From assembly GCA_022511515.1 (NCBI GenBank), contig JAFLRP010000158.1:1-36033 (forward strand): DNA of 36,033 nucleotides. The letters run 5' to 3'. Of this stretch, positions 3,684 through 29,980 are shown piece after piece. The first letter of the stretch is position 1, and each line of letters starts with the position of its first letter. The position numbers and the translations under genes were made by a program. The notes beneath the pieces are model-generated. The model saw nothing but the letters and a program-made list of their open reading frames with translations. It made no database searches and was not told where the DNA came from. The stretch comes from Acutalibacter sp. Lineage in GTDB: Bacteria; Bacillota; Clostridia; Oscillospirales; Acutalibacteraceae.

Positions 3684-4562
3684 ATGAACAGTCAGCTTTC
3701 CGAGAGGATCCGGCAGAAAACGCCGGAATTTTCTAAAGGACAAAGGGCCATCGCCCGTTATATTGAAGAGCATTCGGACAAGGTCGCCTTTATGACTGCG
3801 GCCACGTTGGGCAAAACGGTGGGGGTCAGCGAATCCACCGTGGTCCGGTTTGCCGTAGAGATCGGCTATTCCGGCTATCCCGCATTGCAAAGCGCCCTTC
3901 AGGAAATGGTGCGCAGCAAGATGACAAGTGTCCAGCGGCTGGAAATGACCTCTACCAATGTCCCCCACGACCAACTTCTGCATGCCGTGTTGGACCAGGA
4001 CATTTCCATTTTAAGGCAGACCAAAGAATCTATCGACAAGGAAGTTTTTTACCGGGCGGTGGACGCCCTGACCGGGGCAAAGAGGGTCTTTGTGCTGGGG
4101 GCGGGCAGCTCCTTGGCACTGACCACGTTTTTGACCCATTATCTGCGGCTGGTATTTGAAAATGTCATCCAGGTGGAGGCAGTCAGCGAAGCCATCATTT
4201 TCCAGCAGTTGGCGCGGCTGGGCGAGGGCGACGCCATCATCGCCATCAGCTTCCCCCGGTACTCCAAGCGGGTCATCAAGGCCATGCAATACGCCTCCGA
4301 TACCGGGGCGGTCACCGTGGCCATTACGGACAGCCAACTGTCCCCGCTGGCGGCCTGCGCCGAGCATCTTCTTCTGGCCAGAAGTGACATGGTCTCTTTT
4401 GTGGATTCGCTGGTGGGTCCGTTGAGCATTATCAACGCCTTGATCGTTTCCGTCGCCATTCGGAAAAAGGACGAAGTGGCGGGGACATTACAGCATATCG
4501 AAAGCGTTTGGGACGAGTACGGAGTTTACGAAAAGGTGGATGTGGACCCGCAGAATGGTTGA
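3684..4562 (+). CDS. MurR/RpiR-family transcriptional regulator
   Basis: A 292-aa protein with an N-terminal RpiR HTH (residues 1-77: FSKGQRAIARYIEEHSDKVA, then LGKTVGVSESTVVRFAVEIG, YSGYPALQ) and a C-terminal SIS sugar-isomerase fold (about 115-270; AKRVFVLGAGSSLALTTF, GDAIIAISFPRYSKRVIKAM, VTVAITDSQLSPLA). The family senses phosphosugars and usually represses sugar or amino-sugar catabolic genes. ATG 3684 is chosen because AAGGAGG lies 8 bases upstream; an upstream in-frame ATG at 3648 lacks a site. Its end overlaps the next gene, so the two are translationally coupled, yet no sugar genes are adjacent; the regulon is not evident. It may also regulate the downstream flavoprotein. Confidence 0.9.
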   Translation: MNSQLSERIRQKTPEFSKGQRAIARYIEEHSDKVAFMTAATLGKTVGVSESTVVRFAVEIGYSGYPALQSALQEMVRSKMTSVQRLEMTSTNVPHDQLLHAVLDQDISILRQTKESIDKEVFYRAVDALTGAKRVFVLGAGSSLALTTFLTHYLRLVFENVIQVEAVSEAIIFQQLARLGEGDAIIAISFPRYSKRVIKAMQYASDTGAVTVAITDSQLSPLAACAEHLLLARSDMVSFVDSLVGPLSIINALIVSVAIRKKDEVAGTLQHIESVWDEYGVYEKVDVDPQNG

Positions 4563-5796
4563 GTATGACAGTATCGTAGTGGGCGGCGGAGCTGCCGGGC
4601 TGATGGCCGCCGGGACTGCCGCGTCCACGGGCAAAAAAGTCGCCCTTCTGGAAAAGAACCGGCAATTGGGCAGAAAATTGCGCATCACCGGGAAAGGCCG
4701 GTGCAATGTGACCAATGCCTGCTCGGTGGAGGAAGCCGTGGCATCAGCGCCCAGAGGGGGAAAATTCCTGTATGCGGCGCTTTCCGCCTTTCCGCCCCAT
4801 TCCACCATGGAGTTTTTTGAAGCCCGGGGCGTGCCCCTGAAAATCGAGCGGGGGCGCAGGGTGTTCCCCGTATCCGACAAGGCTTCCGACATTGCGGAAG
4901 CGCTGGTGAAGTTTCTTTCTGAAACCGGCGTAGAGGTCATACAAGAGACCGTTTCAGAAGTGCTGGCCGAGGACAGCAAAGTGACCGGTGTGCGCACGTC
5001 ATCGGGAACATATCGCGGGAAATCGGTGGTGCTTGCCTGCGGCGGGGCTTCCTATCCCGGCACAGGCTCTACCGGCGACGGGTATCGGTTCGCCGAAAGG
5101 CTGGGGCATACGATTCGCCCCATTGTGCCGTCCCTTGTGCCCTTGGTGGAACAGGGAGATTTTTGCTCCCGCATGATGGGGCTTTCTCTGCGAAATTGCG
5201 GAATAAAAGTGACGGAGCAGGGCAAGAAAAAACCGGTGTACGAGGATTTCGGCGAGCTGCTGTTTACCCATTTCGGGCTGTCCGGCCCTACGGTTTTGAG
5301 CGCTTCCGCCCATCTTCATCCCATGGAATCGGGCAAGTACACGGTGCATATCGACTTAAAGCCCGCCCTCGATCTCCAAAAGCTGGACCTCCGGCTTTTG
5401 CGGGAGCTGGAGGAGCACAAAAACAAGCAATTCGGTAATTCTCTGGAAGCTTTGCTGCCGCAAAAGATGATCCCGGTGGCGGTGGAGCGTTCGGGAATTC
5501 CGGCGGAGATACGCTGCCATTCGGTGACAAAAGAACAGCGCCGGAATTTCGGGCAGCTTTTGAAGGACTTTACCGTGGAAATCAAGGGGTTTCGTCCCAT
5601 CAGCGAGGCCATCGTCACCTCCGGCGGCGTGGACCTTCGGGAGATTGACCCCCGCACCATGGGCTCCAAGCTGGTAAAGGGGCTGTATTTTGCCGGAGAA
5701 ATGATGGATTGCGACGCCTACACCGGCGGGTACAATTTGCAGATTGCCTTTTCCACAGGCCGGCTGGCGGGAATTTCCGCAGTCGGGGAGCTTTGA
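4555..5796 (+). CDS. HI0933/YhiN-type FAD-dependent oxidoreductase
   Basis: About 413 aa. The N-terminal dinucleotide-binding motif VVGGGAAGLMAAG is followed by LEKNRQLGRKLRITGKGRCN, the signature of the HI0933-like flavoprotein family, and the C-terminus has LYFAGEMMDCDAYTGGYNLQ, the family's second FAD motif. Members are annotated as aminoacetone oxidase-like or NAD(P)/FAD-dependent oxidoreductases, but the substrate is generally unknown. The start is either ATG 4555 (MVEYDSIVVGGG, closest to homologues) or ATG 4540. Both overlap the end of the RpiR gene (stop 4560-4562), implying coupling. In many Clostridia this gene precedes cmk, plsC and ispH-rpsA, as here, so it is probably part of that operon. 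Confidence 0.9.
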   Translation: MVEYDSIVVGGGAAGLMAAGTAASTGKKVALLEKNRQLGRKLRITGKGRCNVTNACSVEEAVASAPRGGKFLYAALSAFPPHSTMEFFEARGVPLKIERGRRVFPVSDKASDIAEALVKFLSETGVEVIQETVSEVLAEDSKVTGVRTSSGTYRGKSVVLACGGASYPGTGSTGDGYRFAERLGHTIRPIVPSLVPLVEQGDFCSRMMGLSLRNCGIKVTEQGKKKPVYEDFGELLFTHFGLSGPTVLSASAHLHPMESGKYTVHIDLKPALDLQKLDLRLLRELEEHKNKQFGNSLEALLPQKMIPVAVERSGIPAEIRCHSVTKEQRRNFGQLLKDFTVEIKGFRPISEAIVTSGGVDLREIDPRTMGSKLVKGLYFAGEMMDCDAYTGGYNLQIAFSTGRLAGISAVGEL

Positions 5797-5844
5797 TAGA
5801 ATCATTTAAGAGATTAGGAGAATTTTTGAGAGGAAAGAAAGAGT

Positions 5845-5916
5845 ATGTTTTCAGTTGCAATAGACGGTCCCGTCCGGGCAGCTCCGGCGTGCGTAGTGCA
5901 GTTTCACGACTTTTAG
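5845..5916 (+). CDS. Short ORF A: 23-aa peptide starting like Cmk
   Basis: ATG 5845 to TAG 5914-5916 encodes MFSVAIDGPVRAAPACVVQF plus HDF. The first nine residues are identical to the start of Cmk (MFSVAIDGP), and the first 20 bases equal the cmk start at 6031. After that it departs from the P-loop. GAGAGGAAAG lies about 7-15 bases upstream as a ribosome-binding site. Compared with short ORF B, the first 18 codons have 10 base differences of which 7 are synonymous, so the peptide is better conserved than the DNA. That supports translation. It could be a leader peptide, or a remnant of repeated duplication of the cmk start. No function is known. Confidence 0.5.
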   Translation: MFSVAIDGPVRAAPACVVQFHDF

Positions 5917-5938
5917 TATAGAGAGGAAAATGACTTTT

Positions 5939-5998
5939 ATGTTTGCAGTAGCTATTGATGGTCCCGTCAGGGCAGCTCCTGCATACGGAGTGCGTTGA
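5939..5998 (+). CDS. Short ORF B: 19-aa peptide starting like Cmk
   Basis: ATG 5939 to TGA 5996-5998 encodes MFAVAIDGPVRAAPAYGVR. It shares 15 of the first 18 residues with short ORF A although the codons differ (GTT/GTA, GCA/GCT, ATA/ATT, GAC/GAT, CGG/AGG, CCG/CCT, GCG/GCA). AGAGAGG lies 12 bases upstream; an in-frame ATG at 5930 would have a closer but cramped site. The stop is 32 bases before the cmk start. Together with ORF A and cmk it forms three successive gene starts spaced 94 and 92 bp apart. Role unknown; a translated leader or a decayed duplicate are both possible. Confidence 0.5.
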   Translation: MFAVAIDGPVRAAPAYGVR

Positions 5999-6030
5999 AT
6001 AGATTTTTAGAGAAAAGGAAAGTGACGATT

Positions 6031-6699
6031 ATGTTTTCAGTTGCAATAGATGGGCCTGCAGGAGCGGGAAAGAGCAGCGTAGCCAAAGCGGCGGCGCAGG
6101 AATTGGGGTTCGTGTACGTGGACACCGGGGCGCTGTACCGCACGGTGGCATTGTACTTGCTGCGCCACGGGATAAATCCCAAGGACAGCGAGGCGGTAGA
6201 GCCGGTGCTGTCGGAAATTCAAGTGGATTTGGAACATACTTCCGAGGGGCAGAAAATGTTCCTGTGCGGGGAGGACGTGACCGGGCTGATCCGCACGCCG
6301 GAGGTGTCCATGGCGGCGTCGGACTGCTCCGCGCTGCCGGTGGTACGGGCATTCCTGCTGGACCTGCAGCGGGACTTGGCCCGTCGGAACAACGTGCTGA
6401 TGGACGGCAGAGACATCGGTTCTGTGGTGCTGCCCAATGCGGAATTAAAAATCTTTTTGACCGCTTCCCCGGAGGAGCGGGCCAAGCGCCGGATGCTCCA
6501 ACTGCAGGAGGCGGGTAATCCGGCGGATTTTGAGACCATTCTCAAGGATATCCAGCAGCGGGATTATCAGGATTCCCACCGGGCGGCCGCTCCCTTGAAG
6601 CAGGCGGAGGACGCCGTGCTGCTGGACACTACGGAAATCGATTTACAGCAATCGGTGAAAGTTCTGCTGGAGCTGGTGAAGGAGCGCAGAGGGGCGTAA
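6031..6699 (+). CDS. cmk: Cytidylate kinase ((d)CMP kinase)
   Basis: A 222-aa cytoplasmic kinase that phosphorylates CMP and dCMP with ATP. The P-loop is GPAGAGKS at residues 8-15; then DTGALYRTVALYLLRHGI (nucleotide-monophosphate site), MDGRDIGSVVLPNAELKIFL, the lid region SPEERAKRR, and DSHRAAAPLKQAEDAVLLDT near the end, all standard for Cmk. Length is usual for the family (about 220). ATG 6031 is used because AAAAGG lies upstream and the protein then begins right at the first beta strand; an in-frame TTG at 5995 would add 12 residues not typical of the family. plsC follows after 63 bp. Its start is preceded by two partial copies of itself. Confidence 0.96.
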   Translation: MFSVAIDGPAGAGKSSVAKAAAQELGFVYVDTGALYRTVALYLLRHGINPKDSEAVEPVLSEIQVDLEHTSEGQKMFLCGEDVTGLIRTPEVSMAASDCSALPVVRAFLLDLQRDLARRNNVLMDGRDIGSVVLPNAELKIFLTASPEERAKRRMLQLQEAGNPADFETILKDIQQRDYQDSHRAAAPLKQAEDAVLLDTTEIDLQQSVKVLLELVKERRGA

Positions 6700-6762: not shown

Positions 6763-7443
6763 ATGACAAGGAAAAAAGAAGCAAAGAAAAAAGGGTGGTT
6801 CTATGCGTTTGGGCAGTTTTTGCTGCGGCTGTTTTACTACCCGGTCTACCGCATCAAAGTGTTTGGCAGGGAGAACGTGCCGGAGACCGGCCCGGTCCTG
6901 CTGTGCTGTAACCATGTGGCCATGAAGGACCCGGTGCTCTTGGGCATTGCCCAGCGCCGGCAGGTGTTCTATATGGCAAAGGAAGAGCTGTTCCGCAACG
7001 GGTTCATCGGTGCGGTACTCAGAGGATTGGGAGCGTTCCCGGTCAAGCGGGGCACCGGCGGCACGGACGCCCTGGAGGAAGCCTACGCCCTATTGAATGA
7101 CAACGCCATGGTGGGGGTGTTTATCGAGGGCACCCGTTCCAAGACGGGAGAGTTGCAGCGTCCGAAAACGGGGGCAGCCCTGCTCCATTACCGCACGAAG
7201 GCGTCTGTTGTGCCGGTCTGCATCACCGGAAGCACGGGGAAATGGGCCATTCCCTTCAAACGGACAGAGGTGCGGTTCGGCAAGCCCATGACCGCGGCGG
7301 AATTGAACATTCCCGACGATTCCAGTATGCAGCTACGCAGGGCAAGCCGCACTATCATGGCAAAAATTGCCGATTTGCGGGCGGAATCCCGGAAATCTCT
7401 GGGACTGCCGGAGCAGAGGCCTGACACGGGGGAGGAAAACTGA
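6763..7443 (+). CDS. plsC: 1-acyl-sn-glycerol-3-phosphate acyltransferase (PlsC family)
   Basis: A 226-aa membrane-associated acyltransferase that makes phosphatidic acid from lysophosphatidic acid. Family motifs are in order: the HX4D box as NHVAMKDP (about residue 50), the FPVKRGTGG block, the FIEGTRSKTGEL block (usual FPEGTRS, here with Ile for Pro) and VVPVCITGS. A hydrophobic N-terminal helix (FYAFGQFLLRLFYYPVYRI) after a basic start is expected to anchor it to the inner face of the membrane. GAGAGGGAG precedes ATG 6763. The stop codon at 7441-7443 is one base before the GTG start of ispH-rpsA, so translation is coupled. cmk-plsC-ispH/rpsA is a common clostridial order. Confidence 0.93.
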   Translation: MTRKKEAKKKGWFYAFGQFLLRLFYYPVYRIKVFGRENVPETGPVLLCCNHVAMKDPVLLGIAQRRQVFYMAKEELFRNGFIGAVLRGLGAFPVKRGTGGTDALEEAYALLNDNAMVGVFIEGTRSKTGELQRPKTGAALLHYRTKASVVPVCITGSTGKWAIPFKRTEVRFGKPMTAAELNIPDDSSMQLRRASRTIMAKIADLRAESRKSLGLPEQRPDTGEEN

Positions 7444-12786: not shown

Positions 12787-13089
12787 ATGAGCAAGAAAAG
12801 AAAGCCTATAGAATACCACGAACACGACACGCCGGTGGAAAAAATTTTCCCCGACATCTCCGGCGTGGCTTCCGCCAACGAATGCACCGGCCTGATGTAC
12901 AAAACGCCCGTCGACGCCGGAGAATGGGAATCCTACCAGGAGCTTTCCTCCATGGAAATCCCCAATGAGGAGAAGGAGGACGGGGAACTCTTGACAGAAA
13001 AGCTCCGGCATGCCAAAACCGCCGAAGAGACAGGCGACGCGGTGGAGGAGGCCGTCGGCGAGTACAGTCCAAAACACATGAAAGAATGA
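12787..13089 (+). CDS. Small acidic conserved protein, function unknown
   Basis: A 100-aa hydrophilic, acidic protein beginning MSKKRKPIEYHEHDTPVEKI and FPDISGVASANECTGL, followed by a Glu/Lys-rich, likely disordered or helical tail. The N-terminal block looks like that of small conserved hypothetical proteins in Oscillospiraceae (recalled resemblance, not checked). One Cys (ECTG); no membrane segment or signal. A GGGGGAG site lies about 8 bases upstream of ATG 12787. It is the only gene before the 58-bp tandem repeats and their terminator, and the repeats start 3 bases after its stop, so they are probably in its 3' untranslated region. Confidence 0.7.
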   Translation: MSKKRKPIEYHEHDTPVEKIFPDISGVASANECTGLMYKTPVDAGEWESYQELSSMEIPNEEKEDGELLTEKLRHAKTAEETGDAVEEAVGEYSPKHMKE

Positions 13090-13092
13090 AAA

Positions 13093-13267
13093 ACCTGCGG
13101 TCGGGCGGCCGGCTGTTCTTTTGCAAGAACTATCTTCTCGGGTAAAAAAGACCTGCGGTCGGGCTGCCGGCTGCTCTTTTGCAAGAACTATCTTCTCGGG
13201 TAAAAAAGACCTGCGGTCGGGCGGCAAGCCGTTCTCCTGCAGGAACAATCTTCACGGGCAGAAAAAG
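13093..13267 (+). repeat. Three 58-bp tandem repeats
   Basis: Units begin at 13093, 13151 and 13209 with ACCTGCGGTCGGGC. Units 1 and 2 differ at 2 of 58 positions; unit 3 is more diverged and one base longer. Each holds a small hairpin, best as GTTCTT-TTGC-AAGAAC in unit 1 and altered in units 2 and 3. The period is not a multiple of three, so no frame repeats and the block is unlikely to be coding. There are no spacers, so it is not CRISPR. It lies in the 3' region of the upstream small gene and merges into its terminator. Confidence 0.9.
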
Positions 13268-13366: not shown

Positions 13367-14881
13367 ATGGAATTACAACGAGTTTCGCCGGAAAGCGTGG
13401 GGATCCCCTCGCAGGCCGTTTCGGAAATGCTGGATGAATTGTACCGTTACGGCATCGAGATGCACGCCTTCATGCTGCTGCGGCACGGCAAGGTCTGCGC
13501 CGAGGGAAGCTGGAACCCCTACAGGCCGGGCGTCCAGCACAGCATGTTTTCGTTCAGCAAGAGTCTGACCTCCACCGCCATCGGCTTTGCCCGGCAGGAG
13601 GGAATCCTTTCTCTGGACGAAAAGCTGGTGGACATTTTTCCGGATAAGATCCCCGATGATCCCAGTGAAAACCTGAAAAAGGCGGAGATTCGCCACCTTT
13701 TGATGATGGGCTGCGGCCACGAGAACGAGATCGAGTGGGACGGCGGCGACTGGATCACCACCTTTCTGCACCATCCCTTCGTGTACGAGCCGGGTACCCA
13801 TTTCCTGTACAATACCGCCGGGACCAACCTGCTCTCTGCCATTTTGACCCGGAAAACCGGGCAGACCTTGACCCAGTTTCTCCGTCCCCGTCTGATGGAG
13901 CCCCTGGGACTGTCCGATATTCCCTGCCATGCTTTGCAGGACGGTACGGAAATGGGCGGCGCCGGCTGCTCCCTGACCATCGAGGACATGGCCAGATTTA
14001 CCCAGTTTGTGGCCAACAAGGGCAAATGGGAGGGCAAGCAGCTACTGGAAGAAAGTTGGTTTGAAGAGGCCACCAAAAAACAGATCGAAAACCGGGGCGC
14101 AGGCTGGGACGGCGACCCCGACTGGCAGGTGGGCTACTGCTATCAGTTCTGGCGCTGCGAGCCGGAGGGCGTGTTCCGAGGGGACGGCGCTTTCGGTCAG
14201 TACGGTATTGTCTTTACCAAACAGGACGCGGTTCTGGTGATCCAGTCCGCTTCCATGCGGCTGCAGGCGGTGCTGACCTCTGTCTGGGAGAAATTGCTGC
14301 CCGCTATGAAAGAGGAACCCCTTCCGGAAAATGAAAAAACGCTGGAATTTTTGCAGCACCGTCTGAACAATTTGGAGCTGAACCCCATGCTGAGCATGCG
14401 AAATCCCTGGGCGGAGAAATCTTTGGACGGCAAGGTGTTTTTGCCCGATCAGCCCGCCCCTGCCATGACCGACCTGATCGGCGGCGCAGGGAAATTCACG
14501 CCCGACGGCGGCAAGCTGCTGTCTTTGGGCTTCCGGTTCCGGGGGGACGACGCCGCTCTGCTTTGCAGACAGGATGACTGCGAATATGAAATTAAGCTGG
14601 GCCTTACCGGCCATTTCGACCTTTCCGACGTGAACGGCGTGCCCTACGGCGCAAACGGCTGCTGGAAGGGCGGCAATCAGTTGGAAGTGGAGTTCCGCAA
14701 CACCACCAAGGTCACAGGCAAGCGGGTAACTTTCACCTTTCTTGAAAAAAAATTGACGGTCACGGCTTTGTCCACTCAACCGGAGGGAGGCCTGAACGAC
14801 GATCCCACCCCGGAATTGACCTTCACCCTGTCCGAGGGCGAGGCCGAGACCAAGGGCAAAATGTACTGGGAAACAAAATGA
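13367..14881 (+). CDS. Beta-lactamase-related serine hydrolase (class C/DD-peptidase fold)
   Basis: A 504-aa protein with a class C beta-lactamase-type domain (about 1-330). The nucleophile motif SxxK is SFSK in HSMFSFSKSLTSTAIGFA; the second motif region reads FLYNTAGTNLLSAIL (Tyr as likely base, with Asn-Thr in place of the classic YxN); GDGAFGQYG occupies the third-motif position. The C-terminal 170 residues form a separate, mostly beta domain typical of esterase-like members. The family includes esterases, D-aminopeptidases and penicillin-binding-like proteins, so the substrate is uncertain. No signal peptide, hence cytosolic. GGGAGGAG precedes the ATG. It shares a transcription unit with GH127 25 bp downstream, which suggests a carbohydrate-ester substrate (inference). 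Confidence 0.85.
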   Translation: MELQRVSPESVGIPSQAVSEMLDELYRYGIEMHAFMLLRHGKVCAEGSWNPYRPGVQHSMFSFSKSLTSTAIGFARQEGILSLDEKLVDIFPDKIPDDPSENLKKAEIRHLLMMGCGHENEIEWDGGDWITTFLHHPFVYEPGTHFLYNTAGTNLLSAILTRKTGQTLTQFLRPRLMEPLGLSDIPCHALQDGTEMGGAGCSLTIEDMARFTQFVANKGKWEGKQLLEESWFEEATKKQIENRGAGWDGDPDWQVGYCYQFWRCEPEGVFRGDGAFGQYGIVFTKQDAVLVIQSASMRLQAVLTSVWEKLLPAMKEEPLPENEKTLEFLQHRLNNLELNPMLSMRNPWAEKSLDGKVFLPDQPAPAMTDLIGGAGKFTPDGGKLLSLGFRFRGDDAALLCRQDDCEYEIKLGLTGHFDLSDVNGVPYGANGCWKGGNQLEVEFRNTTKVTGKRVTFTFLEKKLTVTALSTQPEGGLNDDPTPELTFTLSEGEAETKGKMYWETK

Positions 14882-27820: not shown

Positions 27821-29980
27821 TTATTTTGCCAAATTCCTGTACAGGAAGGTCACGGCTTGAGCCCGAGTGCAACTCTGATTGGGAGAGAAGGTGGTATCAG
27901 TCGTGCCTGCCACGATTTTGTTCTCATAGGCCCACAAAACGGCGTTGTAGTAGTACTCGCCGGATTTCACATCCGTAAAGGAATTGGACGCGGTAACGGG
28001 CTCGGGACGGTTCGCCGCCCGCCACAGGAAGGACACGATCTGCCCTCTGGTGCAGTTCTGATTGGGTGAGAACGTGGTGGCGGAGGTGCCGGAAGCAATG
28101 TTATTTTCATAGGCCCACAAAACGGCCTTGTAGTAGTACTCGCTGGCTTTTATGTCTGTAAAGGGATTGGCCGTTGTCTTCGGTTCAGGCCGCCCCGCCG
28201 CCCGCCACAGAAGGGTCACGATTTCCGCTCGGCTGGTGTTTTTGTTGGGACTGAAGGTGGTATCGGACGTGCCGGCCACGATGCCCTGCTTCACCGCCCA
28301 GTCTACGGCGTTATAGTAGTATTGAGCAACGGGAACGTCGATAAACTTGGAAGCGGAGGGTGTTTCATTGCCGGAATCGTCGGGTTTCTCTGTGTCACTG
28401 GGACCACTTGGGCCGCTGGGCGCGGGGGGATTTGTGCCGCCGGGATTTCCGCCGGTGTTTCCTCCCGTATTGCCGGAATCGTCAGGCTTGCCAGCGCAAC
28501 CGGCACAGGAGCAGGTATTTCCAGAGCAATCACCCGTGCAGGTGCATTTTGTGCTGTCGCAGCCCTTGCAGGTGCATTCCGGCTCGTCGGGAATTTCAGG
28601 TTTGCAGCCTTCACACTCGCAGTCTCCGGTGCAGGTGCATTTACTGCTATCGCAGTCAGTACAGCCGCATTCCGGGTCTTCCGGAGTTTCGGGGGTATCT
28701 GATTCTCCCTCAGGAACAGCCTGCAAAACCGGGCGTTTCAGCGTCGTGCTCATGCCCCACACACTGGTGAAATCCCAGTTTTCAAAGGTGGCTTCCTCTG
28801 CAAACTCTTCGGCGGTTTTCGGTTCCGCCGTGTTGCCTGTCTCCTCAACAAGTTCGCCGTACTCGTACTCAACGCCGATCCCCGGCAGCTCCGTGTTTTC
28901 AGAATCGAGATAATAGCAGTCATTAATCGTGCTGTCCATGCCCGCTCCCACAACGCCGCCGGCACCGGGTGGTAACATCTCGTCGATCTGATCATCGTCA
29001 TGGATCTCAAAAATTATCTTGCCGGTGTTGTAACACTTTGTCACTATTCCGCCTGAATTCGTTCCCACCACACCGCCGACATCAAACTGGCAGCCCCAAT
29101 CGTCGGGAATATCAGCACCGGTCACGGTTCCTGTGTTATAGCAGTTCGTCACCCTGCCCATTTCATTCATTCCCACCACGCCGCCGGAAAAAGCGCCGGA
29201 TACAGTGCCGGTGTGATAGCAGTTCGACACCTCAGCATTTTCCCATTTGAGATTCCAATCCTCGTCCATCTCCGAATTACCATTCCATCCCACTACGCCG
29301 CCGACATTACCGCCGGTCACAGCGCCGGTGTGACGGCAGTTTATCACTCTGCCGTGGTGATTATATCCTACCACGCCTCCAGCATCACCGTAGCTGCCGG
29401 CATCCACTACCCCTGTGCAGGAGCAGTTTATCACTTCGCCGTCGATTCGCCCGGCTACGATTCCAAGAGCTCCGACTGCAAATTCTGCGCCGGTTATCAT
29501 CACCGCGGCGTCTGTAACGTTCAGATTTTTCACAACGGCACCCTCGCTCACACAACCGAACAAGCCCAGATAGTAGAATGGCTGCTCCCACCAGTTCTCT
29601 TGTATTACCTCCACATGGAGATACAAATTTTCGATTTTGTGATGATCGCCGTCAAAAGTGCCGGAAAAGAAGGGTCCATGATCATAGTCGTCATAGTCTT
29701 CAAAACTGCCACCCCCTATCGGCACCCACTGGTTACTTTCACTGCCGTTCAGGTCAATATCCTGCGTCAGCGTGAAAGTCGTGTTTTCATAGGGTTCCCC
29801 GCCGTTGACGGTTTCCGCCAGCGCCTTGAGCTGTTCCACTGTGGAAATCGTATAAGTTCCCCCAGCAGGCGCGCCGCTGTAGTAGGCCGTTCCCTCCGCC
29901 GCCCACACGGTTATTGGCAGACAGCTTGCCAGCAAAAATACTGCCAGCAATACACTTAGAACTCTTTTTGCCTTTTTCAT
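27821..29980 (-). CDS. Secreted SLH-domain protein with GLUG repeats and Cys-rich linker
   Basis: A 719-aa exported protein. Signal peptide about residues 1-28 (KRVLSVLLAVFLLASCLP, ending near VWAAEG). Residues 40-420 form a beta-helix-like region: ISTVEQLKALAETVNGG, FSGTFDGDHHKIENLYL, then GLUG-type repeats (GGVVGYNHHGRVINCRHTG, GGVVGMNEMGRVTNCYNTG, GGVVGTNSGGIVTKCYNTG). Residues about 433-497 are a Cys-rich linker with two CDSxKCTCTGDC units, then a Gly/Pro/Asn-rich spacer. Three SLH repeats (from about 545) end the protein with SRAEIVTLLWR, TRGQIVSFLWR and TRAQAVTFLYR, and anchor it to pyruvylated cell-wall polymer. GGAGGAAAG precedes ATG 29980. An adhesin or glycan-binding surface role is likely but unproven. 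Confidence 0.92.
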   Translation of the reverse strand: MKKAKRVLSVLLAVFLLASCLPITVWAAEGTAYYSGAPAGGTYTISTVEQLKALAETVNGGEPYENTTFTLTQDIDLNGSESNQWVPIGGGSFEDYDDYDHGPFFSGTFDGDHHKIENLYLHVEVIQENWWEQPFYYLGLFGCVSEGAVVKNLNVTDAAVMITGAEFAVGALGIVAGRIDGEVINCSCTGVVDAGSYGDAGGVVGYNHHGRVINCRHTGAVTGGNVGGVVGWNGNSEMDEDWNLKWENAEVSNCYHTGTVSGAFSGGVVGMNEMGRVTNCYNTGTVTGADIPDDWGCQFDVGGVVGTNSGGIVTKCYNTGKIIFEIHDDDQIDEMLPPGAGGVVGAGMDSTINDCYYLDSENTELPGIGVEYEYGELVEETGNTAEPKTAEEFAEEATFENWDFTSVWGMSTTLKRPVLQAVPEGESDTPETPEDPECGCTDCDSSKCTCTGDCECEGCKPEIPDEPECTCKGCDSTKCTCTGDCSGNTCSCAGCAGKPDDSGNTGGNTGGNPGGTNPPAPSGPSGPSDTEKPDDSGNETPSASKFIDVPVAQYYYNAVDWAVKQGIVAGTSDTTFSPNKNTSRAEIVTLLWRAAGRPEPKTTANPFTDIKASEYYYKAVLWAYENNIASGTSATTFSPNQNCTRGQIVSFLWRAANRPEPVTASNSFTDVKSGEYYYNAVLWAYENKIVAGTTDTTFSPNQSCTRAQAVTFLYRNLAK

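Follow-up and report, generated by a model that had tools for sequence, protein, structure and literature searches.

The question raised by this locus is why the start of cmk should be repeated twice, as short reading frames, immediately in front of the gene itself. The stretch of DNA analysed (36,033 nucleotides, hereafter the window) makes up contig C34 in a 210-contig genome of 2.43 Mb from Acutalibacter sp. (G000). The gene order at the locus is an aminoacetone oxidase family/HI0933-like FAD enzyme (4540 to 5796, TIGR00275, on the plus strand like all of the features located below in the array), the array of repeated starts, cmk encoding a (d)CMP kinase of 222 amino acids (6031 to 6699, TIGR00017 and PF02224), an acyltransferase (6763 to 7443) and a fusion of ispH with ribosomal protein S1.

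The array consists of head-to-tail units at 5844 to 6053 with a period of 94 (TRF score 253, 77% matches; also found by direct-repeat search), and each unit repeats the ribosome-binding site and the first codons of cmk. The first two units form micro-ORFs and the third one is cmk itself. The initial annotation had described three cmk-like starts, and these were borne out by the direct-repeat search, TRF and the translations at positions 5845, 5939 and 6031, with spacings of 94 and 92 bp, respectively. Micro-ORF 1 (5845 to 5916, 23 codons) is copy 1 of the cmk start and reads MFSVAIDGPVRAAPACVVQFHDF before its stop, and micro-ORF 2 (5939 to 5998, 19 codons) is copy 2 and reads MFAVAIDGPVRAAPAYGVR before its stop, as obtained for both by repeat search, translation and TRF. 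Identity between the two copies is 75% over 73 nt. Both carry a core, GGGCAGCTCC, at 5876 to 5885 and 5970 to 5979, respectively, which was invariant across all four known copies (pattern search and comparison of the copies). A further occurrence of GGGCAGCTCC at 4103, inside an rpiR-type gene, was taken as chance.

A purine-rich ribosome-binding site, also part of the earlier description, is present before each start. The SD-like sites of micro-ORF 1 (5828 to 5835), micro-ORF 2 (5919 to 5927) and cmk (6015 to 6025) have predicted energies to the anti-SD of -6.0, -6.4 and -6.6 kcal/mol, respectively. By this prediction the micro-ORF sites are as good as cmk's own, but they are unexceptional against some 150 ATGs taken at random from the window, among which the best 5%, 10% and 25% reached -9.4, -7.2 and -5.7, respectively.

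The resemblance among the three starts is more than chance. A scan of 1,705 candidate starts on both strands, in the window together with 20 stretches from the same genome (215,537 bases in all), gave 10 hits with 24 or more matches of 33. Three of these lie at cmk, one is a minus-strand reading of the array, three come from a 58-bp intergenic repeat near 13126 to 13179 and the remaining three are isolated, with 24 to 25 matches of 33. The 58-bp tandem repeat itself occupies 13089 to 13267 (3.1 copies, 87% matches) and is flanked by a small ORF that ends at 13089 and an ORF that starts at 13367. Another tandem repeat, of 183 bp (2.2 copies, 74% matches), lies at 27874 to 28275 within a minus-strand ORF (27821 to 29980). 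The tandem copies upstream of cmk are real, and an assembly artefact, for which a check had been proposed, is unlikely because the copies of the window have diverged to the identity given above and a diverged copy is found singly in each of two other assemblies.

These two assemblies belong to the same genus, in which cmk was detected in 27 of 29 genomes (none in G011 and G024 at E 1e-30). The copy core was found in three of the 29 (pattern search with up to 3 mismatches): the window's genome has two copies, G013 has one diverged copy, MFSVALGGPFGAAPDYRVLFR, 93 bp before cmk, and G015 has one diverged copy, MFAVALDGPYRAAPDYLHFLDNKR, 92 bp before cmk. Pattern searches for the core and for the cmk start found no array in any of the remaining 24 genomes in which cmk was detected. 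The pattern for the cmk start with up to 2 mismatches matched 26 of the 29 genomes, at more than one place in G000 (three), G013, G015 and G009 (two each). The second place in G009 (L136, C8:5389-5414) has two mismatches and lies on another contig than cmk. Absence from close relatives had been proposed as grounds for refutation, and the outcome is divided: the copies are present in the two nearest relatives and absent from the 24 others. In the cmk protein tree (27 rows), G000, G013 and G015 cluster with a support of 94/90, just under the star mark of 95/80, and the copies take the same place before cmk in all three. Over 55 cmk loci on genome contigs (one with fewer than 100 bases upstream, several with fewer than 400, and some being repeated genus genomes), the upstream sequence matched the cmk start at no more than 18 of 30 positions, against 26 to 28 of 33 in the three carriers. 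Outside the genus, the window's own genome was the sole match to the core both among 398 family genomes (up to 2 mismatches) and among 394 order genomes (up to 1 mismatch), the two draws overlapping and containing neither G013 nor G015.

The array stays with cmk despite a different upstream gene, which is the FAD enzyme in the window and an acetyltransferase-like ORF in G013. The latter ORF (L081 761-1351) was assigned by reading of the sequence and is not the FAD enzyme, and in G015 the copy follows a similar ORF end. The purine-rich stretch ahead of each start is likewise repeated in all three genomes, and the start codon, the open frame and the SD-like site are intact in all four copies. 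Within each genome, the SD-like sites of copy and cmk are similar in strength (-6.0/-6.4 against -6.6, -8.9 against -8.9 and -8.9 against -9.1).

Judging from this anatomy and the cmk tree, the unit is very probably an old tandem duplication of the cmk start in the ancestor of the three species. The ancestral event, of about 92 bp, would have copied the 5' untranslated region of cmk, its ribosome-binding site and roughly its first 12 to 16 codons. The copy of G013 aligns with its own cmk through nucleotide 35 and, after a 7-nt gap, again at AGCTC. Both sequences read AGCTCC after the gap, for which the chance was estimated by our own arithmetic at about 0.004 (exact continuation over 6 bases, 16 gap lengths). 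Against the cmk of G013, copy 2 of the window shows, after a 1-nt gap, the same 7-nt gap followed by AGCTC; the alignment gaps of the window copies and of the G015 copy against their own cmk fall elsewhere. The reading of the copies as cmk starts with a deletion in the P-loop would therefore rest mainly on G013, and how far the duplication reached into the coding sequence (12 to 16 codons) is uncertain because the three other copies do not align to their own cmk as that of G013 does. The most conserved stretch of the copies is the nucleotide core GGGCAGCTCC, identical at 10 of 10 positions in the four copies, and since it is common to all of them, the duplication appears to predate the split of the three species.

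As for what the copies do, our best guess, to which a probability of about 45% was assigned, is that the array is a cis-acting translational leader of cmk. This choice was made because the array was found only before cmk, in three genomes that group in the cmk tree, with start, SD-like site and frame intact in every copy. After the duplication, the frames of the copies would have closed after 19 to 24 codons, and we infer that the copies were then selectively retained as one or two leader micro-ORFs. Ribosomes would load at the duplicated starts, translate the micro-ORFs and terminate 17 to 32 nt before the next start, and this translation might lower or smooth initiation at cmk. Since the start regions of a copy and of the cmk behind it are almost identical, the leader would, as we propose, answer to the same conditions as cmk. 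As a possible second layer, the GCTCC tail of the nearest copy could pair with cmk codons 9 to 12 when the micro-ORF is untranslated. The case is drawn from three species, and the varying copy number (2, 1 and 1) counts against it. Leader peptides controlling cmk had been suggested already in the initial annotation: the starts, SD-like sites, open frames and shared position of the copies uphold that suggestion, but the evidence from sequence drift is weaker than it looked.

That evidence was the statement that the peptide is kept while the DNA drifts. Between the two window copies, 10 base changes in codons 2 to 18, 7 of them synonymous, were counted as before, and if as many changes are placed at random, 7 or more are synonymous with P 0.0054. 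The synonymous excess of this pair is P 0.0016 for codons 2 to 16 and P 0.076 for codons 10 to 16 alone, where 3 of 4 changes are synonymous. For codons 2 to 16 of cross-species copy pairs, P values of 0.57, 0.026 and 0.043 were obtained (three of five pairs tested), and for codons 10 to 16 no significant excess was found in any of four pairs (P 0.076, 0.91, 0.23 and 0.59). Most of the excess lies in codons 2 to 9. Codons 1 to 9, however, descend from cmk and may be refreshed from it, and as cmk is itself under protein selection, codons 2 to 9 cannot prove that the copies are translated. The micro-ORF of G013, moreover, reads FGAAPD where the others read VRAAPA. The synonymous excess claimed for the window pair is therefore real, but it is modest across species and not significant in codons 10 to 16, so that selection on the micro-ORF peptide is unproven.

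Two of the changes between the window copies, CGG/AGG and CCG/CCT, would also keep a four-base-pair hairpin, by reading of the sequence. This hairpin is missing from the best folds predicted for the two whole units, and its register was not kept in G013 or G015. These changes suit synonymous drift and the hairpin alike, and neither is proved. Conservation of the copies was also compared with that of fourfold sites in cmk, which are identical at 55 of 89 (G000 and G013), 44 of 85 (G000 and G015) and 72 of 106 (G013 and G015). Codons 2 to 16 have 73 to 80% identity in all six pairs of copies. One-sided Fisher tests of copy identity against the cmk fourfold sites gave P values of 0.025, 0.13, 0.007 and 0.007 for the pairs of the window with G013 and G015, and 0.094 for a fifth pair; these pairs share genomes and are not independent, and the P values are uncorrected.

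The main rival to a translational leader is a functionless tandem duplication, in which unequal crossing-over or slippage of the 92-bp units would preserve the likeness to cmk and whose conserved and synonymous-biased look would come only from refreshing by a protein-coding gene. We consider this explanation possible, though doubtful. Codon 6 behaves as refreshing predicts, being Ile in the window copies and their cmk, whereas G013 and G015 have Leu (TTA) there in the copy as well as in cmk, and the concentration of the synonymous excess in codons 2 to 9 and the varying copy number fit a relic as well. If this were the case, the lesson would be that a start copy can owe its synonymous drift to the parent gene, and that such drift does not prove translation. 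Refreshing, however, is not clearly shown by the site patterns of the start regions, which are mixed: five quartets gave 1, 3, 3, 4 and 4 sites of genome type, 7, 0, 5, 2 and 2 of paralog type and 3, 3, 5, 1 and 3 of cross type (ungapped alignment, with the SD stretch poorly registered). Concerted evolution of the start regions was rejected on these mixed patterns. Tandem repeats of 92 bp are expected to be lost easily, but all three members of the group keep the array, and the four copies agree fully in GGGCAGCTCC, a sequence that cmk lacks in this exact form.

A less likely reading than these two is that the RNA came first, the copy next to cmk bearing in its tail an antisense arm to codons 9 to 12 of the gene and the duplicated start serving only as carrier; we regard this RNA attenuator as unlikely. 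In the window, the putative arm GCTCCTGCA in the tail of copy 2 (5975 to 5983) is an exact 9-nt complement of TGCAGGAGC at 6057 to 6065, within cmk codons 9 to 12. The exact complement to the own cmk measures 9 nt for copy 2 of the window, 8 nt for G013 and 9 nt for G015, and dinucleotide-shuffled tails reached such lengths in fractions of 0.014, 0.04 and 0 of 500, respectively. Among 27 genus cmk starts, the tail of window copy 2 fits its own cmk best (9, the next 7), as does that of G015 (9, the next 8), and the tail of G013 fits its own cmk second (8, with 9 for the cmk of G015). Complementarity of tail to cmk thus occurs in all three genomes but is suggestive only. The stem was predicted with a probability of 0.94 in G015, against only 0.007 to 0.018 in the window; for G013 the full unit gave 0.019, and only omission of its first 24 nt raised this to 0.98. 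Duplex energies were not significant (P 0.56, 0.39, 0.06 and 0.12 for copy 1, copy 2, G013 and G015, respectively), the TGCA and TCCGGA parts are self-complementary, and copy 1 is complementary to its own cmk over only 5 nt (0.73 of shuffles for length). Template-switch correction of imperfect inverted repeats could, in addition, yield such complements without selection; template-switch homogenisation of inverted repeats is described as a mutational process in the text of PMC8604942 and PMC8794818.

The copied start and the arm might also be combined into one self-derived translational gate, in which the copied start serves as leader and the nearest tail is re-matched as antisense arm whenever the P-loop codons change, a proposal that we hold to be improbable. 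The tail of copy 1 (GCTCCGGCG, 5881 to 5889) is an exact 9-nt complement of the cmk starts of G012 and G021, which are among the 3 of 27 genus cmk starts with which it reaches 9 nt. Within the gate reading, copy 1 would be an outdated arm because of this match, as against the matches to the present cmk in copy 2, G013 and G015.

Scans for RNA signals were negative in the leader region. The predicted fold of the whole leader was not significant (z 0.69), nor were those of the single units (z 0.50, -0.74, -1.10 and 0.30), and the consensus structure had four pairs without compensatory change. Rfam covariance models gave no matches at E <= 1 in 5600 to 6300. A transcription attenuator was rejected on finding no intrinsic terminator in 5600 to 6200 (0.6 expected in shuffles). 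The sole promoter-like site (5709 to 5736) falls inside the upstream gene. CTP-sensitive reiterative transcription, as in pyrG-like control, was dropped because no promoter-like site was found between 5737 and the cores.

Less probable still is a leader that arrests its ribosome by an (R/G)AAP stall motif in the nascent peptide, after the manner of SecM (RAGP) or ApdP (RAPP). The likeness to these arrest peptides lies in a short upstream ORF with an Ala-Pro element: AAP is present in all four micro-ORFs and is preceded by R in three of them. However, G replaces R in G013, the peptides have only 19 to 24 residues and, to our knowledge, cmk has no link to protein export. The motifs described as arresting near the C-terminus are RAPP, RGPP, RAGP and RAPG (PMC12992588, PMC10987492), none of which was found near the C-terminus in the micro-ORF translations. 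RAAP, which the micro-ORFs carry in their place, is absent from the main text of both papers and is not among the wider motif variants given in the text of PMC10987492, where such variants were also searched.

Elements that target the 5' end of a gene are known, such as SXT in prfC, and the copies do have the gene start in common and part from cmk beyond about codon 9, but the earlier suggestion of a scar left by an element that integrates at the 5' end of cmk and brings a replacement start is hardly credible, for no cmk-start copy was found far from cmk in the three genomes (up to 2 mismatches), the tail is no genomic repeat, recurring only at the array in five genomes (up to 3 mismatches) apart from one 3-mismatch site on another contig of G015 (whose own copy is too different to match the search pattern), the spacing is a constant 92 to 94 bp and the G013 tail can be aligned to its P-loop.

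A translational leader, which like the neutral relic is more likely than an RNA arm, an arrest peptide or an integration scar, would mean that tandem duplication of a gene's own start, followed by closure of the frame, is a cheap route to a cis-regulatory leader ORF. Such leaders, if true, would be easily missed by annotation, yet easy to look for. A small probe of the literature met no report of a leader derived from the start of the very gene that it precedes. Its components, tandem duplication and leader micro-ORF, are both of known kinds. With ordinary intergenic tandem duplications the array shares head-to-tail units of 92 to 94 bp, diverged copies and a copy number of 1 to 2; it differs from them in having an intact translation start and in occurring in every one of the three grouped genomes, kept while 38 to 48% of the comparable cmk fourfold sites differ between the window's genome and G013 or G015. 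With known bacterial leader micro-ORFs (uORFs) it shares a short frame with an SD-like site that lies directly before a housekeeping gene and has the same position in the nearest relatives, whereas here the putative leader is a copy of the start region of its own target, in one or two tandem units.
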